From Amyelois transitella (lineage: Eukaryota; Arthropoda; Insecta; Lepidoptera; Pyralidae): a stretch of DNA of 64,000 bases. The notes beneath the pieces were generated by a model that worked only from the letters and a program-made list of their open reading frames with translations, searched no databases and was not told the origin of the DNA. The DNA lies in contig NC_083517.1 of NCBI RefSeq assembly GCF_032362555.1, forward strand, positions 764,001 through 828,000, written 5' to 3'. Below are positions 7,886 through 54,752 of the stretch, piece after piece. A program made the position numbers and the translations under genes. Within the stretch, counting starts at the first letter, position 1, and each line of letters opens with the position of its first letter.

Positions 7886-10800
7886 TTAGAAACGACGACG
7901 TTTGTTAGGAAAATCGTCCATTTGGCGCGGCCCATCCCAACCGCGGCCCTGCGGCATGTCATCAAAGCCTCCACGCGGCATGTCGAACTGCTCTCTGAAG
8001 CCTCCATCCTAGGTAAATCAATACTTTCCAATAGTTTCACTTCAAACAAATATGACAACAAAACGGTACATCATAAAATTAAAATTACATTTGGCGTGCG
8101 CTGCCCTATCACGGACGAAAAATAACGACGCCCGAATTTAAGTTATATCAAAAAAAAAATATAACGTCAGTTATCGTCATCCAGAGTGCAATGAAATCTT
8201 AAGATTTAAATGACAAAGTTCGTGAGAAAAAGAACAAAATATATGCCCTTCTCGACTTGTCTCAAATGAGCATTTTCTCTAAATATACCCCATTCGATTT
8301 ACAGATGTCGAATTAATCATCAACGTCAAACCGTGCACGCACGTAAAGTTCATCGTAATGATCGTATTGTTACAACAGAATGGCTGAGAAAAATAAAATA
8401 CCGATGGGTAATTTTCCTTGAGGAAAAATATGTCTCCATATAGAGAAAATATTTTCAAAGTACAATTCGCAATAAAGAACTTAAAGATAAAATGCATGTA
8501 GTATAACACGACAGACGTCTGCGGGGACCCTTACAGAGTTTGTCTACATATGGATACGCGTTGTCAAGTAAAGAAGGCGTGGTCAAATGGCCTTCAAATT
8601 GATCAATGAGTGAATACGAGTAGTCAACGAATATTAATTAGATGATATCCTTCTAAAATTCACAAAAAAAAATGAGTTGTGCGACCGACTGTTCCACATT
8701 TTGGAACAAAGACTACTGTTAGTATTATACCAACTATGAATCGTGTTCAGCGGGTAATCACCGACTACAGTCTACAAGTAATCATGCTGGCGCTCTGCTG
8801 GGCTAGCACGGCTCGCGTGTCACCGTTTTTAACTATCGCTGTCTCGTTTCACGTCATAATGAAAATCGAAACAGCTATATAACTGTACGATTAAATATGT
8901 TGGGGAGTGAACGTTTAGTATAGTATAGTTATATGTAGAACGTTTAGTATAGTATAGTTAGTATAGTAGTTATCAGCCACACTGTTTGAGGCTCTACATA
9001 CATACATACATAAAATCACGCCTCTTTCCCGGAGGGGTAGGCAGAGACTACATCTTTCCACTTGCCACGATCTCTGCATACTTCCTTCGCTGAGGCTCAA
9101 CGATTGGAATAATTTCAATACCGCTTACACTGAGTTTTCAATTCGCTATGTCAATTTTTTTGTAAATTTAGGATCAGCTATGTACGTGGCTACGACCCTT
9201 ACTCCATCTTTGAAACTTTTTACCTCAAATTGGTATCAAATATCAGTATGAGAATGAATCGACGAAGCTAAACCGCATGACAAGGCTCACAAGACCCAAG
9301 ATAATATTGTTATATGCACTACTAGCGACCCGCCCCGGCTTCGCACGGGTGCAAAATTCGGAAAAAAATTTACATAAAAACCTTCCTCTTGAATCACTCT
9401 ACCTGTTACAAAAAACCGCATCAAAATCTGTTGCGTAATTTTAAAGATTTAAGCATACAGACAAACAGACTAAAATAGCGACTTTGTTTTATACTATGTA
9501 GTGATTTACGGCCCTTTGAGCCATCACGATTGCATCATTGACCCTACGAGCCCCACGCCAACGTCTGTCGACCCTAAAACTTATTTACCAATCATGTTTC
9601 ATCACCATGAGCTGGTAATTTTATTGTATTTATTATTTTTCCCTACCTGATATGAAAAAAAAAACTATTTCAAGCAGTTTCAAATTAACACCTGTTTTAG
9701 AAGAAAAAATTATTTAATACTGGCAATACTTAGGATTGATAAAACGGTAATGTTTTCAAACAGGAAAAGAATGCATGTAAATTTTAAAACGTGTATAATT
9801 GTATATTGGATCAGAAGAATTCCAATGGATAAAAATCATTTGAATACATTTGACGCTTGCGCGATCCCTATTCACGTCTTTTTCTCTCTTAAGGTGGGTT
9901 CATATAGTCCCGAATAATTCTTTTGCATCATTGTAAATTTTCGCTCTTTCTCATCTTATAGTCTCTGTCTCAAAAATTGTACGTAGAAATCCTTTCCCAA
10001 CGTTAAAATTATTACAAGGGAATGCATTATGACACTTAAATGTCGTGAAAAGATTAATCCCCGGCTTTGCACGCGTAATATTTACAAATATAAACCTTCT
10101 TCAGACAAACCTCTTTCCAACATTTCAAACAGGAACAAAATTCGCCAACAACTTTCCGAGATAAGCGCATACATACAGACAGAGAAAATAGGGACTTTAT
10201 AATACGTAGTGATTTTAAATATTCTGCCGTTCATTCTACATAAATCACTTATTAAGTCATTCTTTCGACGTTATTACCAACCTTACGAGAGAAAACATCA
10301 TGATATAATCCACGAAAGCTATCAAATGATTCAGTGAATGTTTATAACGGGAATAGGTTCCACTACAGTGTAAACTTGAACACAATCATCGATTTAACAT
10401 ATACCTGTTGATTCAAGTTGGTAATGAGATAATTATGTTTCATATGCCAATAAATATGTCACGTAAACTCGAACAGAATTAAGACGTAGTACTCACCATT
10501 GGCTGCTGTTGGTCGAACATGCCCTGCTCTTGACGATCCAGCATTGAGTTCAATCGCTGGGCCTGTTGACAAAAAAAAAAACGTTCAAAAAAACCTTCGT
10601 ATTATAAATTTGCAAAGTTATAAAAGACCTTGATTAAAGTATGGATACAAAATATACCACATTACACATTAACACATCTCACTTCTGACACATACACATC
10701 CCCCTTCTGACATACACACACACCCCCCTGCCGGCCAGCTCCCCCTCCTGCCGCAGCCCCCCCCCCCCCCCGACACACACCGACCTGCACAAACAGCGTG

Positions 10801-13800
10801 TTCTCCTGCTGCCGCCGCCGCAGCTCGTCGTCCTGCAGCCGCATGCGCGCGGCCAGCTCCCCCTCCTGCCGCAGCCCCCCCCCCCCACACACACCGACCT
10901 GCACAAACAGCGTGTTCTCCTGCTGCCGCCGCCGCAGCTCGTCGTCCTGCAGCCGCATGCGCGCGGCCAGCTCCCCCTCCTGCCGCAGCCCCCCCCCCCC
11001 ACACACACCGACCTGCACAAACAGCGTGTTCTCCTGCTGCCGCCGCCGCAGCTCGTCGTCCTGCAGCCGCATGCGCGCGGCCAGCTCCCCCTCCAGCCGC
11101 AGCCCCCCCCACACACACACACCGACCTGCACAAACAGCGTGTTCTCCTGCTGCCGCCGCCGCAGCTCGTCGTCCTGCAGCCGCATGCGCGCGGCCAGCT
11201 CCTCCTCCTGCCGCAGCAGCTGCGCGCGCTCGCAGTCGCGGCGCTCGTCGGCCGCGCGCGACGCCAGCTCCCAGCTGCGCTTCTGCCGCTCGCGGTCCTG
11301 CTCGCGCTGCCGGAGCTGCTCGCGCAGCAGCTCCGTCTCGTGCTCGTATCTGCAGGGAGAACATCGTTCAGCCAACTGCATGTGTATACCATAATGATCA
11401 AATACCAGTTAGGTTGGGTTGCGGAGGTCAGACGGGAGTCGCTTCGTTTAAAAACCTAAATCATCCAATCCAGGATCCATAGTCAAGGGCTTTACCCCCC
11501 AGCTCCTCTCCAGAATGATAAGGATGCAACCGGGACTATAGCCAAGAAGAAGAATTAATTACAGATGTTCAGACAAAAAAACGGCTAAATGTTCCTGAAC
11601 AAATTGCTGAGTTTGGCAGCATATATTTATAATTATGGCACAGTTCCCAACATCCTTCAGACAAGCAAGCATACAATAAAACATCCAAGAACCTAAAGCG
11701 TACGCTGCTGCAGCCGAGCATATAGTCACTAACAGCTACAAGCGCCATTAATTACTCGCTATGGAAGACATGCAAAAGTTCGGACAAACCAACTGACCAT
11801 AAACCTCCAATAAAAGGTCATGCTCATTCTTGAGCTCGAACAAGCCAGGAAAAAGCCTATGCTTTTACTGAACATCTGGCTAAGATATTCATACCCAATA
11901 ATCCTAAACCTGGGATTGATGAAACAGACATTAACAGGGTTCTTGCATAGAACTTCCAGTTGGACCTATCTATGAAGGCAACGAGTCCCAGAGAAGTATG
12001 TAAACTCATAAGAAGTCTAGATAAGGCGCCAGGATATGACCTGATAGATAAAAAAGTGCTGATGGAACTACCTCGTAAGGCTGTAGTATAAATGACTAGT
12101 ATCTTCAATGCTATAATTAGAATAGGGAATTTCCAGGGCAATCCTTAAAAAGGCTTCTAAGCGTCCTTGCCGAACACTCAATAATTCCAGAACACAACAT
12201 TCCAGAACAGCCAGCATTATGCTGAGGGGGTACCCTTTCGGGAGCACCATACTACATGTTTATTTTTGTACATATTTTTGTTTCCTTTTTTTGTCTTTTT
12301 GTTATGGTGTTCTTTGAATAAATTCTTTTTTACTTTTTACTTTTTTTTTTTTTTTTTAACACCAGTTTGGATTTCGGCAACAACACTTAACCATGAAGCG
12401 GGTTCAGAGTGTCTGTCAAGCTATCAGAATATCGCTGGAACGAGGGGAATTCTGCTCATCAGCTTTCATTGACATACAACAGGCATTTGATAGAGTTATG
12501 GCAGAAAGGACTGTTATATAAAATAAAATAAAACCTCCCTCACACGTTCTATAGTTTACTGGCGTCCTAACTTTCGGATAGAATATTTCAAGTCCTGAAA
12601 AGAGCAGTACGTCAAAATTCTACGATTTACACATAGGAGTTCCCCAAGGTTCGGTTCTTGGACCAGTACTTTATACAATTTTTACGTCAGATCTACCAAA
12701 CCATCCCAGTTACAGTGACCACCTTCGCAGATGATACGGCGATCCTTGCAACTAGACAAGATCACGTTGACGCTTTACGTACACTACAAAATAGCCTCAA
12801 CTAAATACAAAAATGGTTAGATAAGTTGAGGATAACTGCAAGCGCGTCAAAGTCAACCCAAAAAACCTTCACGTGAGGTTAAACCTCCCGTACAACAGGG
12901 TGGCCAACAACTACTACATAGTGATTCTGTAAAATACCTGAGAATTCATCTAGACCGCAGACTAACTTGGAGAAGACACATTGAACGTAAAAGAGAAGAA
13001 TTAAGTATAAGTTATGGAGGGCTTCAATGGCTTTATAAAGCAATATACAAGCTAATATGGACATATAGCATCCAACTGTTGGAATCAGCATGTAACTAAA
13101 AAGTTAATACTATACAAATAGCTAAATACTCCATACTAAAACATCTCGCCAACACACCATGGTTCATAAGAAATTCTAAGATCCATGAGCATCTACAAAT
13201 AATAACAGTTAAGGAAGAGATTCCTCTTATCAAAATGTGGCGTGTGATCCCGGCACTAATAGAAAAAAAGAATACAACCACTCCATCACTTTCCCATGGA
13301 TGTTGTAAAAGGCGACTAAGGAATAAGTTTATAATCTTGAGATTCTTTTAGGCTTTAGACTAGCAACATGTCACTATTAGAATCTCAATTCTATCATTGA
13401 GCCAAACAGCTGTGTGTGTCATATCAGTATTTTCAAACATAACCCGCCACAAAGGATATAGACTTGATGATATGTATCACACATATTCACTACTAGCAAA
13501 TCTAGTACTAACTTGGCATATTCCATCTGAGCTTCGAGTTTCTCCTCCTCCGCGGCGAGCTCCTTCTTGAGGGTTTCTTCCTTCTGGCGGTGCAGCTCAT
13601 GCAGCTGCTTCCATCTGGTGCCGTACTCGTGCTCGAAACTGCTCAACTCCGAGAACCGTGGGCCAAGCTGTGTTTGTAAAAATATATTTATTACATTTAC
13701 CATTAAAATTGATTTCACTTTAGTTTCCCCTTTCGAGAGGAGCCTGACTCCTATATCATAGGGAAGCCTTTAAATGGGAGGTCAGCACAACAAACTTTTG

Positions 13801-16800
13801 TAGACTCATACTGAATAAACGATATTTGTATATTATAACAATTTGAGGGACATTAATGATAGGAGAATATGATCAAGCCGCTAAAATGTGAAATAGTGTG
13901 AGTTGAAACAGAATTATTTGTGTCTACAACTAGCAAACTGACCTGGATTTTCACGGGTAGCTTTTATAGATATAAACCTTCCTGTGAAAATTCGCCAACA
14001 TTTCAAACAGGAACAAAATCCGTCAACAACTTTCAGAAGATAAAATAAAGAAAATAGGTGGACTTTAGTAATAGTTATAATCATCATAATGACCGAAGTG
14101 TTTGTTTGGACAAATTAAGTCTGGAGATGCGTAGTTCAAGCATTATAATACACAAAACGTGTTCCCATGACACAGAGCAATGAAACTAAAAGAAAATAAA
14201 ATGTTTGGTGGCAAATTCAAGATCTTACCTCACGGGCCTTCAGGAACTCCGGATGCTTCTTGGGCAAGTTCTTCTCAGGGTAACCGTCAAACTCATCAGG
14301 CTCCTCGAAGCTCTCGACAATAACTGGACGAAGGGATCTAAAAGGCAAGATACAATTAAAATATCTGACCAAAATATCAAATGTAATGCAATAAATCACA
14401 AATGTTTTGCAACTTACGAAGTTAGGAAGAAACATTTTTCCGTGCAATTCCTAATGGCGGCCAATGCGCTAGGTTTTCGCGCGTATTCAACAACGCCTTC
14501 GCCAAGAGTCTTTCCTCTATCGTCAACCTTCACATAGGCTCTCTCAATTTTCCCGAATATCTCAAAGGCTCGGTACAACAATTCGTTAGACACAAACGGA
14601 GGTAGGTTCTTGACTCGGATAGCGCTGTTGTGCGGGGCGAATCTCACTCTCAATGTTCTACCGTTTCTCATCTGGCCGTCAAGCTCACGCTTTGCTTTTT
14701 CTGCGCTTACTCTAAAATCCTATAAAAAAAAATACTTTAGTCACAAAAAAAAATCATTTGATTTAATAGTGTGATAAATATGTACAAAGACAGACACATC
14801 AATTCACATACTATATAATAGTTACATCTCACGAAAAATTCTATCCTTAGAATTTGCATAATAATTAAATAAGAATATTAGTTAACTTACCATTTTAATA
14901 AATCCAAAATTCTTCTCTTTGTTGAGGAACAACTCCGATGTCTCACCAAAGGGAGCAAACAATGCCAGGATTTCTTCTTCGGTCACATCATTGGTAAGGT
15001 TCCCGATGTACAGACGGCTCCTGCCATTAAATTTCACTTCGGTCTGATCAATTGGGGGCAAGTCCAGCAGTGGCCCCACTAAATCCTTCAGCTTATTTGC
15101 TAGCATTACTTCCTAGAATCACATTATACCTTTAAAATTAATGTAAACAACAAAGAGCCTTACTACTATAAACATAAGAAGCTTATCATTAGAGTTATTC
15201 AGCTCTGACCGCCAAAATCTGATATCCTGACTGTGGATTATTTAGTTAAGATCAAACCAAAAGAGAAAAGTAATAATTATAATTAATAGTGGATTGTTTG
15301 GGAGATCAGACCAGAACAGGTCAAGTTTTTGATCAAAGCATAACTTTTTGTAAACCTTGTGGGCACAAGTTACACTTTGATGACTGAACAGTCTTTTTAA
15401 AAGACCCTTTATTAAAATGCTGTAATAGTCATCTTGTCAAGGGAAATATAATCTAAACATTCTGAATATCAAAAAAGTCTTACTTCTCTCTGCGCAGGTT
15501 TCAGGCCATCCAAATTGCCATGCATAGGTCCTCGTCCACCTCTCTGTTGCTGTTGGTTGCGCGGTGGACCACCTGGTCCGCCTGGACCGCCACCTTGCTT
15601 CGGTCCAAAAGGCCTGTTGCCTTGGTTGATGTTGTTGCCACCAGGTTTATTACCAGGGCCACCTTGACCTTGGTTAAAGTTGTTACCACCGGGCTTGTTC
15701 CCGGGACCACCCTGGTTAAAGTTACCACCCTGTTTGTTGCCTGGACCACCCGGGCCTTGGTTGAAGTTTCCGCCAGGTTTGTTACCGGGCCCACCTTGGT
15801 TCCAGCCTCCTTGCTTATTGGGACCTCCAAAGCTCCCATTCATGTTCTGTTGAAAGAGCATCCATGTAAAAAAATGTAACACTGCTTTGAATTATTTATA
15901 GAAAGAATATTCTTTATAGAAAGAATTTTAAACCAATTCTTTCTATCGCACAGCTTGGCAAGGGCACTTTTTTTTATAATAAATTTGAGTGTTTTTGATG
16001 ATTTCATTTGAGAGTGGACATTGTAAGACATTGTAATACAGGTGCATTATCAAGCCAGTGAGGTTCCTACATGTGGTAAACTTACCCTTTGCTGTTGGTT
16101 CTGGTTGCCTTGATTTTGGTTTTGATTCTGATTCTTTGTCTCTGGAGCAGCTCTGTCAACCTTGTCCTGGGACTCCGTTGCATTCTGAGCAGGCTTGGCT
16201 TGTTGCTGTTGAGGCGGAGTTGTTTTCTGTTGCTGTGGTGACGGTTTCTGAGTGGGAGTCTCCGGCTTCTGTGGTTGGTTTTGTTGTTGAGGCTTAGTCT
16301 GTTGTTGTTGGGCTGCCGGTTTCTGTTGCTGGGGCTGTTGCTGGTTTTGTTGTTGACCTTGTTGCTGCTGGGGCTTTGCAGCAGGTTGATTCTGTTTGAT
16401 CTAAAATATTGTTACAATATTTAGCATCACTTTCATAAACATGAGTAGTGATAAATATGGTGAAAGTGTACAAAAATAAACAGGGTTCGTGTTGGAGACC
16501 AACCTCTTTTGAGTTTCAGTGGCTTTTTCGCTTCTTCTAATTCTCATATTTGGTGCGATTCCATTTTTTTCATAATTTTATTTTAACGGTATACTAATAG
16601 TTTGTTTATTGCATGATAAGAGTAAAACAGTAATGAGAAAATGTAAAATGACTTCAGTGAATTTTCATCTCAATGAAGCTTAAGTATCACTGACTGTAAA
16701 CTCTTTGCCTGACTAATATTTATGCATTACATTTAACATATATTTTTAATTCCAAACAGTCAGCATTTTCCAAATTGAGATGACTCACTGGTTAAAGATA

Positions 16801-17165
16801 AATGAGCTCCCAAGTAGCAAAATTGAGGTTATAATTTGAATGGAATCATCACGTCAAAATGGCGCTGACGCTTAGAAAAATCAATATCAATTATAAATAA
16901 TATAGCTATTTATTCATATACTTAAATATCAATCTAGAAAATAAAGCTAATAGTTAAACAAAGATTTTGTGAAATGCATAGATACCTCATTATTAGGTCG
17001 TTGACCTCCTTGACCCTGATTTTGATTCCTCTGGTTCTGGTTGTGTTCAAATCTAGAATTTCCACGGAAACCTCCACGATTATTACCGCGTCGACCACCT
17101 TGCCTTTGAGGTTGCGGCGGTCCGCCAAAACCTCTATTGTATTGATTCATAGCTTGCATTTGCAT
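7886..17165 (-). CDS. nonA: nonA / SFPQ-NONO (DBHS) family RNA-binding protein
   Basis: A nuclear DBHS protein. The family binds RNA and DNA as dimers and acts in transcription, splicing, RNA retention and repair. Coding exons in transcript order: 17165-16986, 16400-16086, 15846-15484, 15112-14891, 14719-14418, 14337-14229, 13667-13513, 11349-11127, 10562-10497, 8008-7886. All phases agree and give 685 aa. Residues 1-60 are RGG/N-rich, 61-165 Q/P-rich, and 166-286 hold GGPGNKPGGN-type repeats. RRM1 is about 317-388 (RNP2 LYIGNL, RNP1-like NFGFIKM) and RRM2 about 393-470 (IRVKNLPP). Then come a NOPS segment (RPVIVESFEEPDEFDGYPEK), a long charged coiled coil (about 505-640) and the basic end NKRRRF. 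The start is the first ATG after a 3' splice site; MQMQAM gives nearby alternatives. The length of exon 8 is uncertain because three more in-frame donors follow it. Confidence 0.93.
8930..8990. repeat. short direct repeat (GTTTAGTATAGTATAGTTA)
   Basis: GAACGTTTAGTATAGTATAG occurs twice, about 30 bp apart, followed by a further TTAGTATAGTAG. This is a small tandem array in the last intron of nonA. Confidence 0.6.
8997..9095 (-). mobile_element. CATA-tailed LINE 3' end
   Basis: A CATACATACATACATA tail precedes ATCACGCCTCTTTCCCGGAG and the CCACTTGCCACGATCTCTGC block. It is very close to the copy at 23263-23490 but shorter. It lies in the last nonA intron. Confidence 0.75.
9323..9510. mobile_element. 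interspersed repeat beginning ACTAGCGACCCGCCCCGGC
   Basis: Begins ACTAGCGACCCGCCCCGGCT, then ACAAAAAACCGCATCAAAAT, and ends near CTATGTAGTGATTT. Degenerate relatives are at about 10055-10215 and 13915-14065. It is non-coding and of a type common in moth genomes; its class is not certain. Confidence 0.6.
10730..11216 (-). repeat. 114-bp tandem array duplicating an exon end plus its 5' splice site
   Basis: On the minus strand, four units start at 11216, 11102, 10988 and 10874; a fifth, truncated copy starts at 10756. Each unit carries the nonA exon-8 segment ending ENTLFVQ, then the donor CAG|GTCGGTGTGTG and a GT/G-rich spacer. The donor-proximal exon ends are 11127, 11013, 10899 and 10785, exactly 114 bp apart, so using any of them keeps the frame. 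Spacers 1-3 are each 22 bp although their C-run/AC-run mixes differ (8 versus 12 C). Spacer 4 is 26 bp and would break the frame. Read-through adds 38 aa per unit. Confidence 0.9.
11413..11560 (-). mobile_element. GAAGCGACTCCCGTCTGACC-family repeat, minus copy
   Basis: The blocks GCGGAGGTCAGACGGGAGTC and CCAGGATCCATAGTC, in reverse order, mark a minus-strand copy of the family at 28845-29120. It lies in nonA intron 7, between the tandem exon array and the decayed reverse transcriptase. Confidence 0.6.
11640..13255 (+). pseudogene. decayed jockey-like LINE reverse transcriptase
   Basis: Plus-strand pieces in changing frames match the order of a jockey-type RT. An upstream segment reads SLDKAPGYDLIDKKVLMELP and IFNAIIRIGNF. 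Then comes a QHSTMEQ-like and FIDIQQAFDRV region at about 12375-12500, VPQGSVLGPVLY and FADDTAIL at about 12640-12745, and late segments TWRRHIE, LIWTYSIQL and PWFIRNSKIH at about 12965-13180. The FADD catalytic motif is still readable, but stops and frameshifts disable the gene. A short retroelement tail is inserted at about 12215-12350. It is antisense to nonA within intron 7. Confidence 0.75.
12215..12355 (+). mobile_element. short retroelement tail nested in the LINE remnant
   Basis: GCTGAGGGGGTACCCTTTCG through TTATGGTGTTCTTTGAATAA plus a long T-rich end. It is related to 3560-3700. Reverse-transcriptase similarity stops before it and resumes after it, so it inserted later. Confidence 0.55.
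13262..13440 (+). mobile_element. GGATGTCGTAAAAGGCGACT-family repeat
   Basis: The landmarks CCACTCCATC, CCCATGGATGTTGTAAAAGG, CGACTAAGG and AGCCAAACAGCTG identify the most abundant repeat of the window. Other copies include 24680-24895, 32545-32765, 43970-44250, 46005-46215, 53725-53890 and 60135-60310 on plus, and 20548-20705, 24064-24298, 26648-26765, 27326-27590, 29155-29375, 40895-41148, 47075-47325 and 63615-63785 on minus. Full copies end in GATATAGACGTGATTATATG plus (TATG)n. Probably a SINE or LINE tail. Confidence 0.65.
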
Positions 17166-35607: not shown

Positions 35608-36110
35608 GAGCAGACAATTTTTTTATTTTTGAATATTCTACACAATTGCCATCCCACTAGTAAGCAAAAGATATCGAATCTACGATTACATCACTACAAC
35701 TATCGATATAGGTACAGCGTCACTCAAAATAGTGATGATCTTTATTTAGTGATAATATTAAAATTAAAGTTTCATCAAATAAAATAAAATAAATAAATAA
35801 ATAAAATAAACAGTAGACAAACTCTTTTTTTAAATTATGGAGTATCGTTACAAATCCCATTCCACCAGTAAACGAAAGATATCGTAACTACAAGAAAATC
35901 ACTATGATTATCGATATATAGCGTCACACACGGTATTAATGTTCTGTACTCAATATTTTACAGTAGACAAAATCATTTTTTTTAATTATGAAGTATCGAT
36001 ACAAGCCCCATCCCGCCAGTATACGAAAGCTACCGTCACTACGAGTACCATCACTACGACTATCGATATATAGCGTCACTCACGGTATTGGTGACCTTTG
36101 TCAGTCAGAG
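35608..36110. repeat. degenerate ~150-bp tandem repeat reaching into the PCMT stop-codon exon
   Basis: Three diverged units start at about 35608, 35810 and 35961. Each runs (CAGTAGACAA), a T-run, then CCCAT-CC-CCAGTA-ACGAAAG, ACTATCGATATA and GCGTCACTCACGGTATT (variants at 35717, 35931 and 36073). The last unit's GCGTCACTCACGGTATTGG is, on the minus strand, the HQYRE-stop end of PCMT. The 3' end of the gene is therefore part of the array. Confidence 0.75.
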
Positions 36111-41792: not shown

Positions 41793-44700
41793 TTATGTTT
41801 GTGTAGGATCATATATAACAGCGCTAAAAGTGACCAGTCTAGTTCGCTCGTTTCGAATGAACATGAAGAATGGCGAATCAGCGTAGAACAACTCGGCCGT
41901 CCTCGACATAATGCCGGCTGTAGCCGAAGTTGCCTCCGTGCCGTGTTCTAAAAATTAAAAAAGAAAATTTTGACAACTAATTGTAATTGAATTTAAAAAT
42001 GGCGCCTTTGTTCAGGGTGATTTAATTCTAAGGTGCATAAATATATCTTTTATTTGGAATAAAACCGGGAGATAAAGTAGAATGAATTGCAGTCTATAAA
42101 AATCATAAATACTTCAATTATACATATATTAGAAGCAAAGATTAATAAATTTGTAATACCCTTCTTCCATCTGACTTTAGTCGCGGTTGCATCCTCACCA
42201 CTCTAGAGAGGAGCCCGGGGTATGCTATGACCATGGATCCTGGATTGGGCGAGTCAGGTTTTTACACCAAGCGACTCCCGTCTGACCTCCTCAATCTTTG
42301 CAGGGGAACCTAACAAAGATGTGCCAAAATGTGAATGTAACGAGGGAGACATCCCTCACCGTAAAAGCATCGGTTAGTATTAAAACGTATGTCCATAACT
42401 TCGAAATTAGTCATTGGTGCATGGCAATCTCACGGGAGCGGAGTCAAATCAAAAGTAAAAATTGTCTTTATAAAGCGTTAAACCTTACCGTCGATGTTAA
42501 TTTTCACTTTCTGTATAATCGAATCTATATGAATCCCAGGGTTGGGAAGTCTGTCTATTAACTCCTTGTATTCCATCGATTCTCTATCATCGCTTCCCAT
42601 TCTCGATAGCACATCAATTTCTGATTTGTTCTCATCCTTATTGAAAACCTCTACCATGAGAGCGAAATTTGCTTTCTCAGCATCAAACATAGATGGCGCT
42701 CCAACAAGTTTTACATACTCTTCAAGATTTAAACTACTCGATATATTCATTTTGGGAAATCTCACTATGCACTTTTGTTTCGTCATTTTACTGATTAATT
42801 TGTGTATTTGCATATAATCGAGCGTCTCAAGAAGTTGTAACAGACTCGTGCGTTTTGGATCCTTTGGTTTGAGGGCATATAATGTGGTGACATTGTCATT
42901 GTAAGGTAAAGCCACCATGTGTAGATCTGCAAAGGGAATTTTAAAAGAAATTATTAAATCTCGATGTCACATCAGCAGCATCCTCGCGTTTCTGGAAAAG
43001 AGCCCAGGGTGCGCCTTTACGACCATGATCTTGGAGTGGGAGAGTTAGATCTTTACACGAACCGACTACTATCTGAATCTCAATTCTATCGTTAAGCCTA
43101 ACAGCTAAACTTCGTCTATCAGTCTTTCAAGACTGCTGGCTCTGTCAACCTAGCAAGGGCTATAGATGTGAAATTGTAGACTCCTATCTGACCTCCGCAA
43201 CCGAACGAAGTAGCGGAAAAAGCTAGTCTAACTATACAATTTATAAGTCGTACGCACCATGTTCTTTAGATGAAATGTAGTTGAACTTTCCAAAATTCAA
43301 CATGAAGTCTGTAACAACTTTTCTGGATGCACCCCGGAATACCATTCTGAAAAGATAACATTAAAAATATGAATCCAAATAAATTCAAAATTTTTGTTCA
43401 TTATTATAGGATACTTCATACTTCGTAGGTATCGCTTAATAATTGTCAAAACGTTTGGTTTCACAACATTGGTTGACGTCAAATACTAAATAGCTGGAAA
43501 GATAAATCTTGACTGACCATCTTCTTGGCGAACCAGCTCCCTTTTTGGGTCTTTTGAGGAGCATTACGTTCTGTTCTTTAAATGGATTCTGTGTTCGTTT
43601 TGAAGAGCCATTAGTCTTTAGCCTCCCTTAATTTTTTATATATTTTTTTTTGTTAACAACGTTGTTGGCAACCGAAATACGTAGTTTGTGAAATTTTGAG
43701 CTTTCTAGCTGTCACATTTTTACGTTTCAGGTACGGAAGCTCGATAAGAGAGAGAGATTACTTATTCGTCAGTTCTGGTCGAAATGGACGCGCCCAATGT
43801 CCTTTGAAGTACAGAGCGTTCAGCAACACCACTTTTGTGGTAGATGGCAGGGTTTTATCCAGGAATTCCTCAATTTTATCTTCTGTGTGTGCTCTCACCC
43901 ACCTAAAAATACACAAAAGATTATAAATTTATTGAAGCCGTTAGGATTGGATCAGGAAATTAATATAATTATGTGCCGCGTGGTTCATGGCACCAATAGA
44001 AAAAATAATACTAAAATGGACCACTCCATCTCTTTCCCATGGATGTCGTTAAAGGCGACTAAGGGATAGGCTTATTAACTTGGTATGCTTCTTACAGGCA
44101 ACGAGCTAGTGACCTGTCACTCTTAGATCAATTCAATTCCATCATTTAGCCATACGGCTGAACATGGCCTTTCAGTATTTTCAAGACTGTTGGCTCTGTC
44201 TACCCCGCAAGTAATATAGACGTGACTATATATATATGTGTATGTATGTAAGTAGGTACCTACATCGAATGCATCTGATGTTAAAATCATGCAACATGCA
44301 TTTTTACCATATTATCAGCGTGTCAAATACCTACATTATTTTCAGACATTTCTCTCCGCTTTAACAAGCAAATTCTTACTTGATATGGGAGCAAATGTTT
44401 CAATTGAAACTTACTCATTAATGGTCTGCTTCGCCACGTTCCCATCTTGGAAGTCGACACTCATGACTTCCCCCCTGTACACACGGTCAAGGTACGTCTT
44501 GTACATATCACGCAGACGCGACCTCTGATCCACGAAAACGGCATCAGCCAATATTGTCTTCGCGGTGGTGTCATTTAGATTTTGAAGCAGGATACCTAAA
44601 TCTTCATGGTGTTGCCGGTTTTTAAGGATGTCTGCAAACATTAGTTTGGGTACTAACCGATGCTGTTACGGCGAGGGAAAACATCGTGAGGAAACATGAA

Positions 44701-51992: not shown

Positions 51993-54752
51993 TCACGAGT
52001 GCTTGACCACGATGACGCCGGGGCGCGGCGGCGGGCGCTCCGCCTTCTTGGTGAGCGCCAGCGGCGCGTCGCCGCACTCCTCGCGGAACAGGTGGTCGCC
52101 CTCCAGGTGGCGGATCGCCTCCACGATGGTCTCCAGGTTCTGGCGGCTGGTGTTGGGGAGGTAGAGGCGCGCCGCCGCCTCGGGCAGCACCTCCACCTCC
52201 ACGCGCGGCTCCGCCTTGATGGCCGCCTCCAGCAGCGGCGCCGCGCCCGCCGCCTCCGCGCCCGCCGCCGCCGCCGCCGCCGCCGCCGGCTCGGGCTCCT
52301 CCTTCTCCGCCTTGCATTCCGACGCCGGGGCGCTGGCCTTCTCGTAATGTATTACGGGATGTGTCAGCTCGCACACGGTTTCCGGATACATCTGGGCTTC
52401 CAAGGCGTGCAGTCTATCTTCAAGTAAACGGCGGTGTCGTCTCTCCCTATCGAGTTGTGCCCTCAAGTCGCTCCCTTCGGCTTCCTTCTTCTGGTTGACG
52501 CTTGTCACGGTTATGACAGCTACGGGCTCGGGTGACCGAGAATTGGCGGTTTCATCAGTAGAGTCGGGAATAATTGTAGGAATGATGGCCTCATTTTTTC
52601 TTTTCTTCAGAGGTATCTCTCCTCCTTCATGCTGGTTCAGCAACCTCTTCAACTGGCAATTTTGTGAAAGAAGTCTTGTTTTCTCTTGCTCCAGAGAGTA
52701 AATGTATTCTGCAGTCTGTTGTAAAATAGCAGCCTAGAAAAAGAAAAAATGCAATTTTAAAAAAATTCACCACAGATTCTCAAAGTTTTAAAGTTTTTTC
52801 AACACATTCATACATTGAAAGAGTGTCACAATATATATTAGTTTTAATTTGCCAACATATTTATTTCCATATGATACTTAATCTGGCAAAGGAAGACTCA
52901 AAAAATAAAAATATTCATTATAATTATATCAACTACCAAGAGTTGGTATGTTTGTTTGGCTGACACGTGCTGCATTTAATATTGACATACTTCATCAAAG
53001 GGAAGGTTTTTACCTTGCTAAGTTTCTCTCCCTCGTGGCGGGGCAGTAGTGTCCGCAAAGCTTGGAATCCGGCATTAATGCTCTGCATTCGTCTGCGCTC
53101 ATTGCTGTTAGCAATCTCTCGCCTGATCCTCTTCTCGGCCTCCATTGTTTTGCCTCCCGAGTTTAGTTGTTTTTCTCTGAAAACAATATTTACACATATT
53201 ACTTTCTCAACACTCTACTTACAAGAGTTAGCTCTTAAATTTAGGAAGAAGATTACTTTCTTAGTTAAACATTTTAATACAGGTCAGTTTGGCTCTCATT
53301 TCCAAGTTACAAGATATAATATGTGATATTTATGCTTTGGTAAACTTTAATCAAAATACAATGTAGTAACAAGCATATGAAACCAACACGATATATGCAT
53401 AACATGAAAATTTTATTTATGATTTGATTTATTTATTTATTTATTTATTTATTGTGACAAAAACGGTTTACACCTATTACAATTATCACACTTTACAATT
53501 TGAAACACAGGTATATCATATTAAGTTAACCATATTAAATCATATAAAAAATTTGAATAATGAAATTAAATTTGAATACACATAAATTAAAAACAACAAA
53601 AATAATATTTTAAAAATTTGTCAATAAAAGTTTTGTCCGTCAGATCTTATATGATGATGAAAACCAAATGACTGCTGGCCAGTTTATCTTCTTATTAGAC
53701 AAATAAGTAATAACTATTGAAAATGATAGGCTTATAAACTTGGGATTCTTGTTTTAAGCAATGGGCTAACAACCTGTCATTATTTGAATCTCAATTCTAT
53801 CATAAAGCCAAACAGCTGAACATGGCCTACCAATCTTTTTAGAACTGTTGGTTCTATCTACCCTTCAGGGCATTATAAGTGTAATTAAAAATATTTAATT
53901 TTCAGACAGTAACTTTCATTTTTAATTTACAATTACCACCTACCCAATACCAATGAGACTCAAACTGAACCAATTTTAATAGAATTTTAAATATTTGTAA
54001 ATTGATGTCGTGGAATTAATCAAATATAGTTTTTATTTTATGTAGGTATCATTTGAATACTCTAAGCGTAAGCAATGCAAAGCTGAGTCAGTGAGTGAGT
54101 AGTTTTTTGTATGTTGTGTATAGTGTAGTTGTTTTTATGTTTTTGTTTTTGTACATGTTTTTAATGCTACAAATGATCATTACTTATGTCAAACAGTTAT
54201 GTAGGGAAAATGAAATAATAAGAACCTTGTATGACAAATATCTTATGTTTTAGTTTTATATAAAAAAATACTATCATTTATAACCTACTATTTTAGTGTT
54301 AGTGAAATTTATGTATTGTAGGGTTCCTTTGAACACAGTCAATTGGAAAAAATAAATGAATGACAGTATTTACGTTAAAAACGTAAGTGTATACATGTGA
54401 TTCATAGTAGCGTATAACGCGACACATAGGTAGTGGCGCCTACTACGCCTATTCGATTTGACCAAACATGGCGCCCCAACAGCTGACTACACACCGGCAC
54501 GGGCGCCAGCGTCATCATATGGCGCGCGAGATCTTTCACCTCTATCATAAAAAATAACCATAAATAAATACGTAAACTAAAAACAAACAAAAAGTAACTG
54601 ATAAACAACGCTTAACCGTAAAATACGTCATAAGTTTAGAAACCACGCCGGCCCAGGCCTTACCTAGCAAATGCGTGATCCGATGCTTCTTCTTCGTACA
54701 AGTTGTAATCGTCCACTTCTAGCAAACAAACATCATTTCCGTGTAAGGACAT
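51993..54752 (-). CDS. crp: bHLH-leucine-zipper transcription factor AP-4 / cropped
   Basis: Ortholog of vertebrate TFAP4 and Drosophila cropped, which binds E-boxes (CAGCTG type) as a homodimer. Exons in transcript order: 54752-54664, 53176-53014, 52733-51993. Phases agree; 330 aa. The start ATG has an in-frame stop two codons upstream. The bHLH is about 46-99: basic RIRREIANSNERRRMQSINA, loop PRHEGEKLSK, helix 2 AAILQQTAEYIYSLEQEK. It continues into a zipper (TRLLSQNCQLKRLL). A second leucine-repeat segment, LRAQLDRERRHRRLLEDRL, is at about 174-192, followed by ALEAQMYPE as in TFAP4. Then come an Ala-rich tract (234-241) and the family C-terminal motif TSRQNLETIVEAIRHLEG (279-296). The end is Pro-rich. 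The Ala tract is encoded by GCC repeats in GC-rich DNA unlike its surroundings. Confidence 0.94.
53725..53890 (+). mobile_element. GGATGTCGTAAAAGGCGACT-family repeat in crp intron 1
   Basis: GATAGGCTTATAAACTTGGG, GGGCTAACAACCTGTCATTA and TCATAAAGCCAAACAGCTGA. A truncated plus copy, antisense to crp. Confidence 0.6.

Follow-up and report, generated by a model that had tools for sequence, protein, structure and literature searches.

Tandemly repeated in-frame 5' splice sites at the end of a coiled-coil exon of nonA in Amyelois transitella

At the end of a coiled-coil exon of the nonA gene of Amyelois transitella, a block that spans the exon end, the 5' splice site, and the first part of the intron is repeated in tandem, which gives four identical candidate donors that are all in the same reading frame. 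The array was analyzed in a 64,000-nucleotide stretch of DNA (assembly GCF_032362555.1, contig NC_083517.1, positions 764,001 to 828,000), here termed the window; all coordinates refer to the window, plus and minus signs in parentheses give the strand, and a slash within a sequence marks a splice junction. With roughly even confidence, we read the array as a young tandem duplication across the exon-intron boundary that is tolerated owing to its frame, the first donor (last exon base 11127) being the one mainly used and the others giving rise to minor in-frame extensions of the protein.

The nonA gene, as spliced according to reading frame and splice sites, occupies positions 7886 to 17165 (-) and consists of ten coding exons, which encode a protein of 685 amino acids with the C-terminal end NKRRRF when the first donor is used; the exon chain was picked by eye, and exons may have been missed, notably within 8009 to 10496 and upstream of 17165. 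The protein matches the Pfam profiles RRM_1, in two stretches (5e-32), and NOPS (1.6e-22), and phmmer aligns ~300 residues (query 26 to 332) with human SFPQ (4wij_A; 2.1e-79), including the long coiled coil that follows NOPS. The gene is nonA, of the DBHS family, whose members SFPQ, NONO, PSPC1, and NonA have the order RRM1-RRM2-NOPS-coiled coil in common. In searches of the assembly that score the best candidates only, NOPS was found in nonA alone, on two exons, and no second copy of nonA was found. Since NOPS was found in a single gene, nonA is probably the sole DBHS gene of the assembly. The distal coiled-coil exon (11127 to 11349, -; 223 nt) starts at the acceptor TGCAG/ATACGAG, ends at the donor CAG/GTCGGT, and holds the first copy of the repeated segment. 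Its frame is continuous with those of the neighboring exons and it aligns with the SFPQ coiled coil; together with the RRM_1 and NOPS matches, this bears out the placement of the array inside a coiled-coil exon of nonA in the initial annotation. The acceptor partner is the next exon (10497 to 10562, -; AQRLNSMLDRQEQGMFDQQQPM), the first base of which is 10562.

The repeated segment aligns with SFPQ residues ~571 to 601, which represent most of the distal charged helix (566 to 598), the alignment itself ending at ~596; this placement uses an inferred chain-to-protein offset of ~210, based on the construct limits given in PMC11754644. According to the same source, the distal charged helix of SFPQ is important for localization, presumably via oligomerization, and worm NONO-1 is said to be without it. 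Region 2 of NONO/SFPQ filaments sits at this helix (PMC12848012). A tandem arrangement of the helix, as present in the array, is absent from all three SFPQ alignments listed. A DUF7312 hit in the 188-aa read-through exon remained below the cutoff (23.9 bits against 27, over 11 residues) and was set aside.

The composition of the exon differs from that of the rest of the gene. G or C is found at 73 of its 75 third positions but at 312 of 611 when the other nine exons are pooled (Fisher p = 1.6e-17), and a G+C peak of 0.68 to 0.76 (200-bp bins) coincides with exon and array; our guess is that this excess reflects biased conversion at a place where repeats form. Also observed within nonA were a 48-bp repeat (1.9 copies; 15620 to 15711, -) in the Gly/Asn-rich coding part upstream of the RRMs and, inside the 2.2-kb intron, open reading frame pieces distributed over several frames (11951 to 12804, +). 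In their motifs GVPQGSVLGP and FADD, these pieces resemble a non-LTR reverse transcriptase; none of the four matched Pfam. Elsewhere in the window, an open stretch at 42481 to 42966 (-) has a serpin match (E, 2.8e-12), and another at 51996 to 52733 (-) encodes 246 aa with a coiled-coil look, contains a CGCCGC-rich tract (52239 to 52288), and has no Pfam match. Presumably, the latter resembles AP-4/cropped.

Tandem Repeats Finder assigned to the array positions 10732 to 11217 (-), a period of 114, 4.2 copies, 97% matches, and a score of 908; the same program reported a 151-bp unit elsewhere in the window (35810 to 36089; 1.9 copies, 84% matches). An exact search with CAGGTCGGTG returned four matches, with last exon bases 11127, 11013, 10899, and 10785 and a spacing of exactly 114 bp, and the four donors CAG/GTCGGT initially annotated every 114 bp are thus confirmed. 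Several details had to be revised. The total unit length stands, but its division into 92 and 22 bp does not, since homology starts at CTGCGG and the unit thus comprises 90 bp of exon and 24 bp of spacer. Past the last donor, the frame is indeed broken, but by a spacer of 28 bp (+4) and not of 26 bp. The spacers between units keep the frame as claimed, and the difference in composition ascribed to them amounts to only two T/G changes between spacers 0 and 1. As these two are of equal length, compensating indels are unnecessary; spacers 1 and 2 are identical. Following the exon are the first extra unit (11013 to 11126, -), composed of spacer and exon-end copy and comprising 38 codons (VGVCVWGGLRLEGELAARMRLQDDELRRRQQENTLFVQ), the second (10899 to 11012, -) and the third (10785 to 10898, -), likewise of 38 codons each, which end at donors 11013, 10899, and 10785, respectively, and finally the 28-bp spacer with a broken fifth unit that has no donor (10732 to 10784, -).

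With the donor as the anchor of the alignment, 5, 4, and 5 of 114 positions distinguish unit 0 from units 1, 2, and 3, respectively, and units 1 to 3 differ among themselves at 1 or 2 positions (units 1 and 2 at a single base). Two of the differences are located within the copied exon part, one is the junction base that precedes it, and the others are in the spacer. Around the splice site, all four units are letter-identical over 76 exon bases before the cut and 12 intron bases after it, and the sameness of the exon bases indicates that the array is young or homogenized. Both differences in the copied exon part are nonsynonymous (Q to L in unit 1, E to G in units 1 to 3), and the extra copies thus show no sign of constraint, although two changes are few and most random ones would be nonsynonymous. 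The donors are followed by runs of 8, 12, 12, and 15 G. In the 327-Mb assembly, the array sequence gave one DNA match (in a search that skips simple repeats), and no dispersed repeat was found among the best candidates that the search scores.

Joining donors 11127, 11013, 10899, and 10785 to 10562 results in predicted products of 685, 723, 761, and 799 aa, in which the only stop is terminal, in agreement with the 38-aa steps that donor choice had been proposed to cause. This openness was rejected as coding evidence. None of the six frames has a stop within the array, and dinucleotide shuffling of the unit left one given frame open in 60% and all six open in 13% of 2,000 trials; for shuffled 114-base pieces from four other nonA exons, one frame was open in 12.5%. 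The frequent openness of the shuffled unit indicates that the open frame is largely due to composition. The remaining informative point is that 114 equals 3 x 38, for which the chance is 1 in 3, or ~1 in 9 with one spacer comparison counted as independent; the identity of spacers 1 and 2 permits no more than one such comparison. Among human coding-sequence tandem repeats at exon-intron boundaries, 9 of 10 are in frame (PMC2812944, Table 2), which suggests that frame keeping is the usual filter.

Donors and acceptors were scored with matrices of approximate textbook frequencies, not trained on this insect, so that the scores are suited to ranking alone. A score of 5.94 was obtained for the array donors, within the 4.72 to 10.52 of the other eight nonA donors, and 274 of the 7,026 GT sites within the 64-kb window score at least 5.94. 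A fifth in-frame donor-like site, which was overlooked when four candidates were counted, is located at 10677 to 10685 (-; GAA/GTGAGA, last exon base 10683). It scores 6.45 versus 5.94 for the array donors and would add 34 further codons, the frame being open up to a stop at 10664. Other donor-like sites are out of frame, namely, TCG/GTGTGT four bases past each array donor (5.55), 10724 (6.02), and 10658 (3.51). As the four donors are letter-identical, U1 would be unable to distinguish them by sequence, and position and wider context would have to decide among them; judged by these letters, the array donors have no ranking. A special RNA fold of the stretch from exon to acceptor found no support, because its energy is ordinary for the composition (z, 0.23; stability equaled or exceeded by 14 of 20 shuffles; G-quadruplexes are outside the fold model).

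According to the explanation that we favor, a recent duplication would have copied the final 90 bp of the coiled-coil exon along with the 5' splice site and the intron start, and unequal exchange or slippage would then have produced four copies and a fragment. With a unit of 114 bp, any donor choice would remain in frame, and the array would for this reason not have been purged by selection. The main product would be the ordinary 685-aa protein spliced from 11127, the remaining array leaving as intron, and minor in-frame products would contain one, two, or three additional distal charged helices preceded by Gly/Cys linkers, probably in an unregulated manner. We place the first donor ahead of the others with modest confidence. 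In its product, VQ is joined to AQRLNSML without an insert, and the alignment of the DBHS part to SFPQ extends to the final residues of the exon. Long G runs are frameshift-prone as coding sequence, which favors an intronic status of the runs in most mRNAs. The ordinary protein, the exon length of 223 nt, and the G runs thus favor the first donor, whereas the short intron and the strong acceptor favor the last.

The latter choice leads to the main competing explanation, which we consider unlikely. Here, the donor nearest to the acceptor (10785) would be the main one, and a 799-aa NONA, in which the distal charged helix is present four times, would be produced constitutively. In splicing experiments with identical competing donors, the one nearest to the acceptor is often preferred. 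Applied to the identical donors of nonA, this preference would select 10785 (222-nt intron, versus 564 nt from 11127), and the acceptor at 10562 scores 11.29, the second best of the nine nonA acceptors scored. In addition, the frame is held across three spacers of equal length and lost after the last donor (+4), which fits frame selection on distal donors in use and counts, like the intron lengths, against the favored explanation. However, the coding sequence would then contain runs of 8 to 12 G, the exon, preceded by a 2.2-kb intron, would be extended from 223 to 565 nt, both unit differences are nonsynonymous, and the helix is lost in the structural model of the full array, albeit with low confidence.

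This model and a shorter one were obtained with AlphaFold2 from single sequences without an alignment. For the exon plus one extra unit, a single helix covers residues 2 to 111 (mean pLDDT, 95.7), and for the exon plus three extra units, a helix at residues 2 to 68 is followed mostly by low-confidence strands (mean pLDDT, 65.4), with the caveat that repeats may mislead such array models. The first linker reads VGVCVWGG and the other two read VGVCGGGG. The lengthening of the coiled coil that had been put forward thus agrees with the continuous helix predicted for one extra unit, where a longer coiled coil is possible, but may not hold for three extra units, for which the model loses the helix (at low confidence). 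The continuous helix also means that an extended protein need not be harmful, which is a further point against the favored explanation.

It is quite unlikely, in our estimation, that the array is a regulated length switch, in which tissue or state would set the number of coiled-coil units through donor choice. The unit does coincide with a functional segment (SFPQ ~571 to 601, the CSAH/region 2 stretch), the products are 38 aa apart, and the helix is continuous with one extra unit in the model, but the open frame is expected from composition, the linkers are by-products of intron-start sequence, and the near-identical units suggest that a switch has had too little time to evolve from the array. 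The length-variable protein switch of the initial annotation is consequently not supported, given that the open frame is uninformative and that one in three unit lengths would be in frame by chance. We consider it very unlikely that the copy number or the spacer lengths are an assembly artifact. Runs of 8 to 15 G are hard to sequence, those of 12 and 15 G are present here, and a single haplotype is available; however, the units carry small private changes and do not look like one stretch repeated by mistake, except for units 1 and 2 with their single-base difference, and the array has a single placement in the assembly.

An explanation by intron gain appears highly improbable. The AG/GT at the unit ends would act as acceptor plus donor, with 114-nt in-frame introns or recursive splicing, and the array would be a snapshot of an intron being gained. 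Stepwise removal of units would restore the ordinary mRNA at any copy number, CTGTTTGTGCAG/G scores 6.41 as an acceptor and thus above two of the nine scored nonA acceptors, and intron gain via tandem duplication of AG/GY sites is described in Drosophila (PMC2891723). Against this, the authentic acceptor scores 11.29, a yUnAy branch-point word (rough consensus) is present at all three authentic acceptors inspected (10562, 11349, and 13667) but not within 60 nt upstream of the unit ends, and 24 of the 408 AGGT sites of the window match both scores, 4 being those of the array. Barely credible is an autoregulated valency rheostat, in which NONA on the G runs would mask its own donors and its level would set the number of region-2 helices; human DBHS proteins bind G-rich RNA, with the G-quadruplex form preferred (PMC7367201).

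Four identical in-frame donors with near-identical exon context in one gene amount to a naturally occurring competition experiment on 5' splice-site choice. The closest known counterpart is the donor minisatellite of human IFI6, said to be described by Turri, Cuin and Porter in 1995, the unit of which is reportedly 12 bp long. In IFI6 (6-16, G1P3), downstream minisatellite units act as splice donors and three mRNA species result (PMC4526556), so that alternative donors built from a minisatellite have, as a kind, a precedent. In both genes, tandem units each contain a donor, nonA having four identical CAG/GTCGGT sites 114 bp apart; IFI6 has a short unit and reported donor use, whereas nonA has a 114-bp unit with a 30-codon functional segment and candidate donors. 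Internal tandem repeats at exon-intron boundaries of human segmental duplications alter splicing (PMC2812944); those are found in recent human paralogues with transcript support, whereas the nonA array occurs once in the assembly, in an insect gene, and is known from genomic sequence. The Drosophila cases of intron gain resemble nonA in their duplicated AG/GT and in a multiple-of-three size that permits splicing or retention, but they start from a duplicated piece of coding exon and lead to a new intron (PMC2891723), whereas in nonA an existing donor was copied into its own intron, with no branch-point word seen. A mosquito DBHS gene copy is the subject of a paper on male determination (PMC10121658). 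Among the matches listed from the open-licence literature, no paper is about lepidopteran nonA by its title, and no title or abstract start describes a nonA donor array. Taken together, the kind of array is already known from IFI6, and what is new is that the unit encodes a domain and belongs to the gene of an RNA-binding DBHS protein; should the distal donors be in use, a minisatellite would add oligomerization segments to a nuclear protein and leave its frame unharmed.
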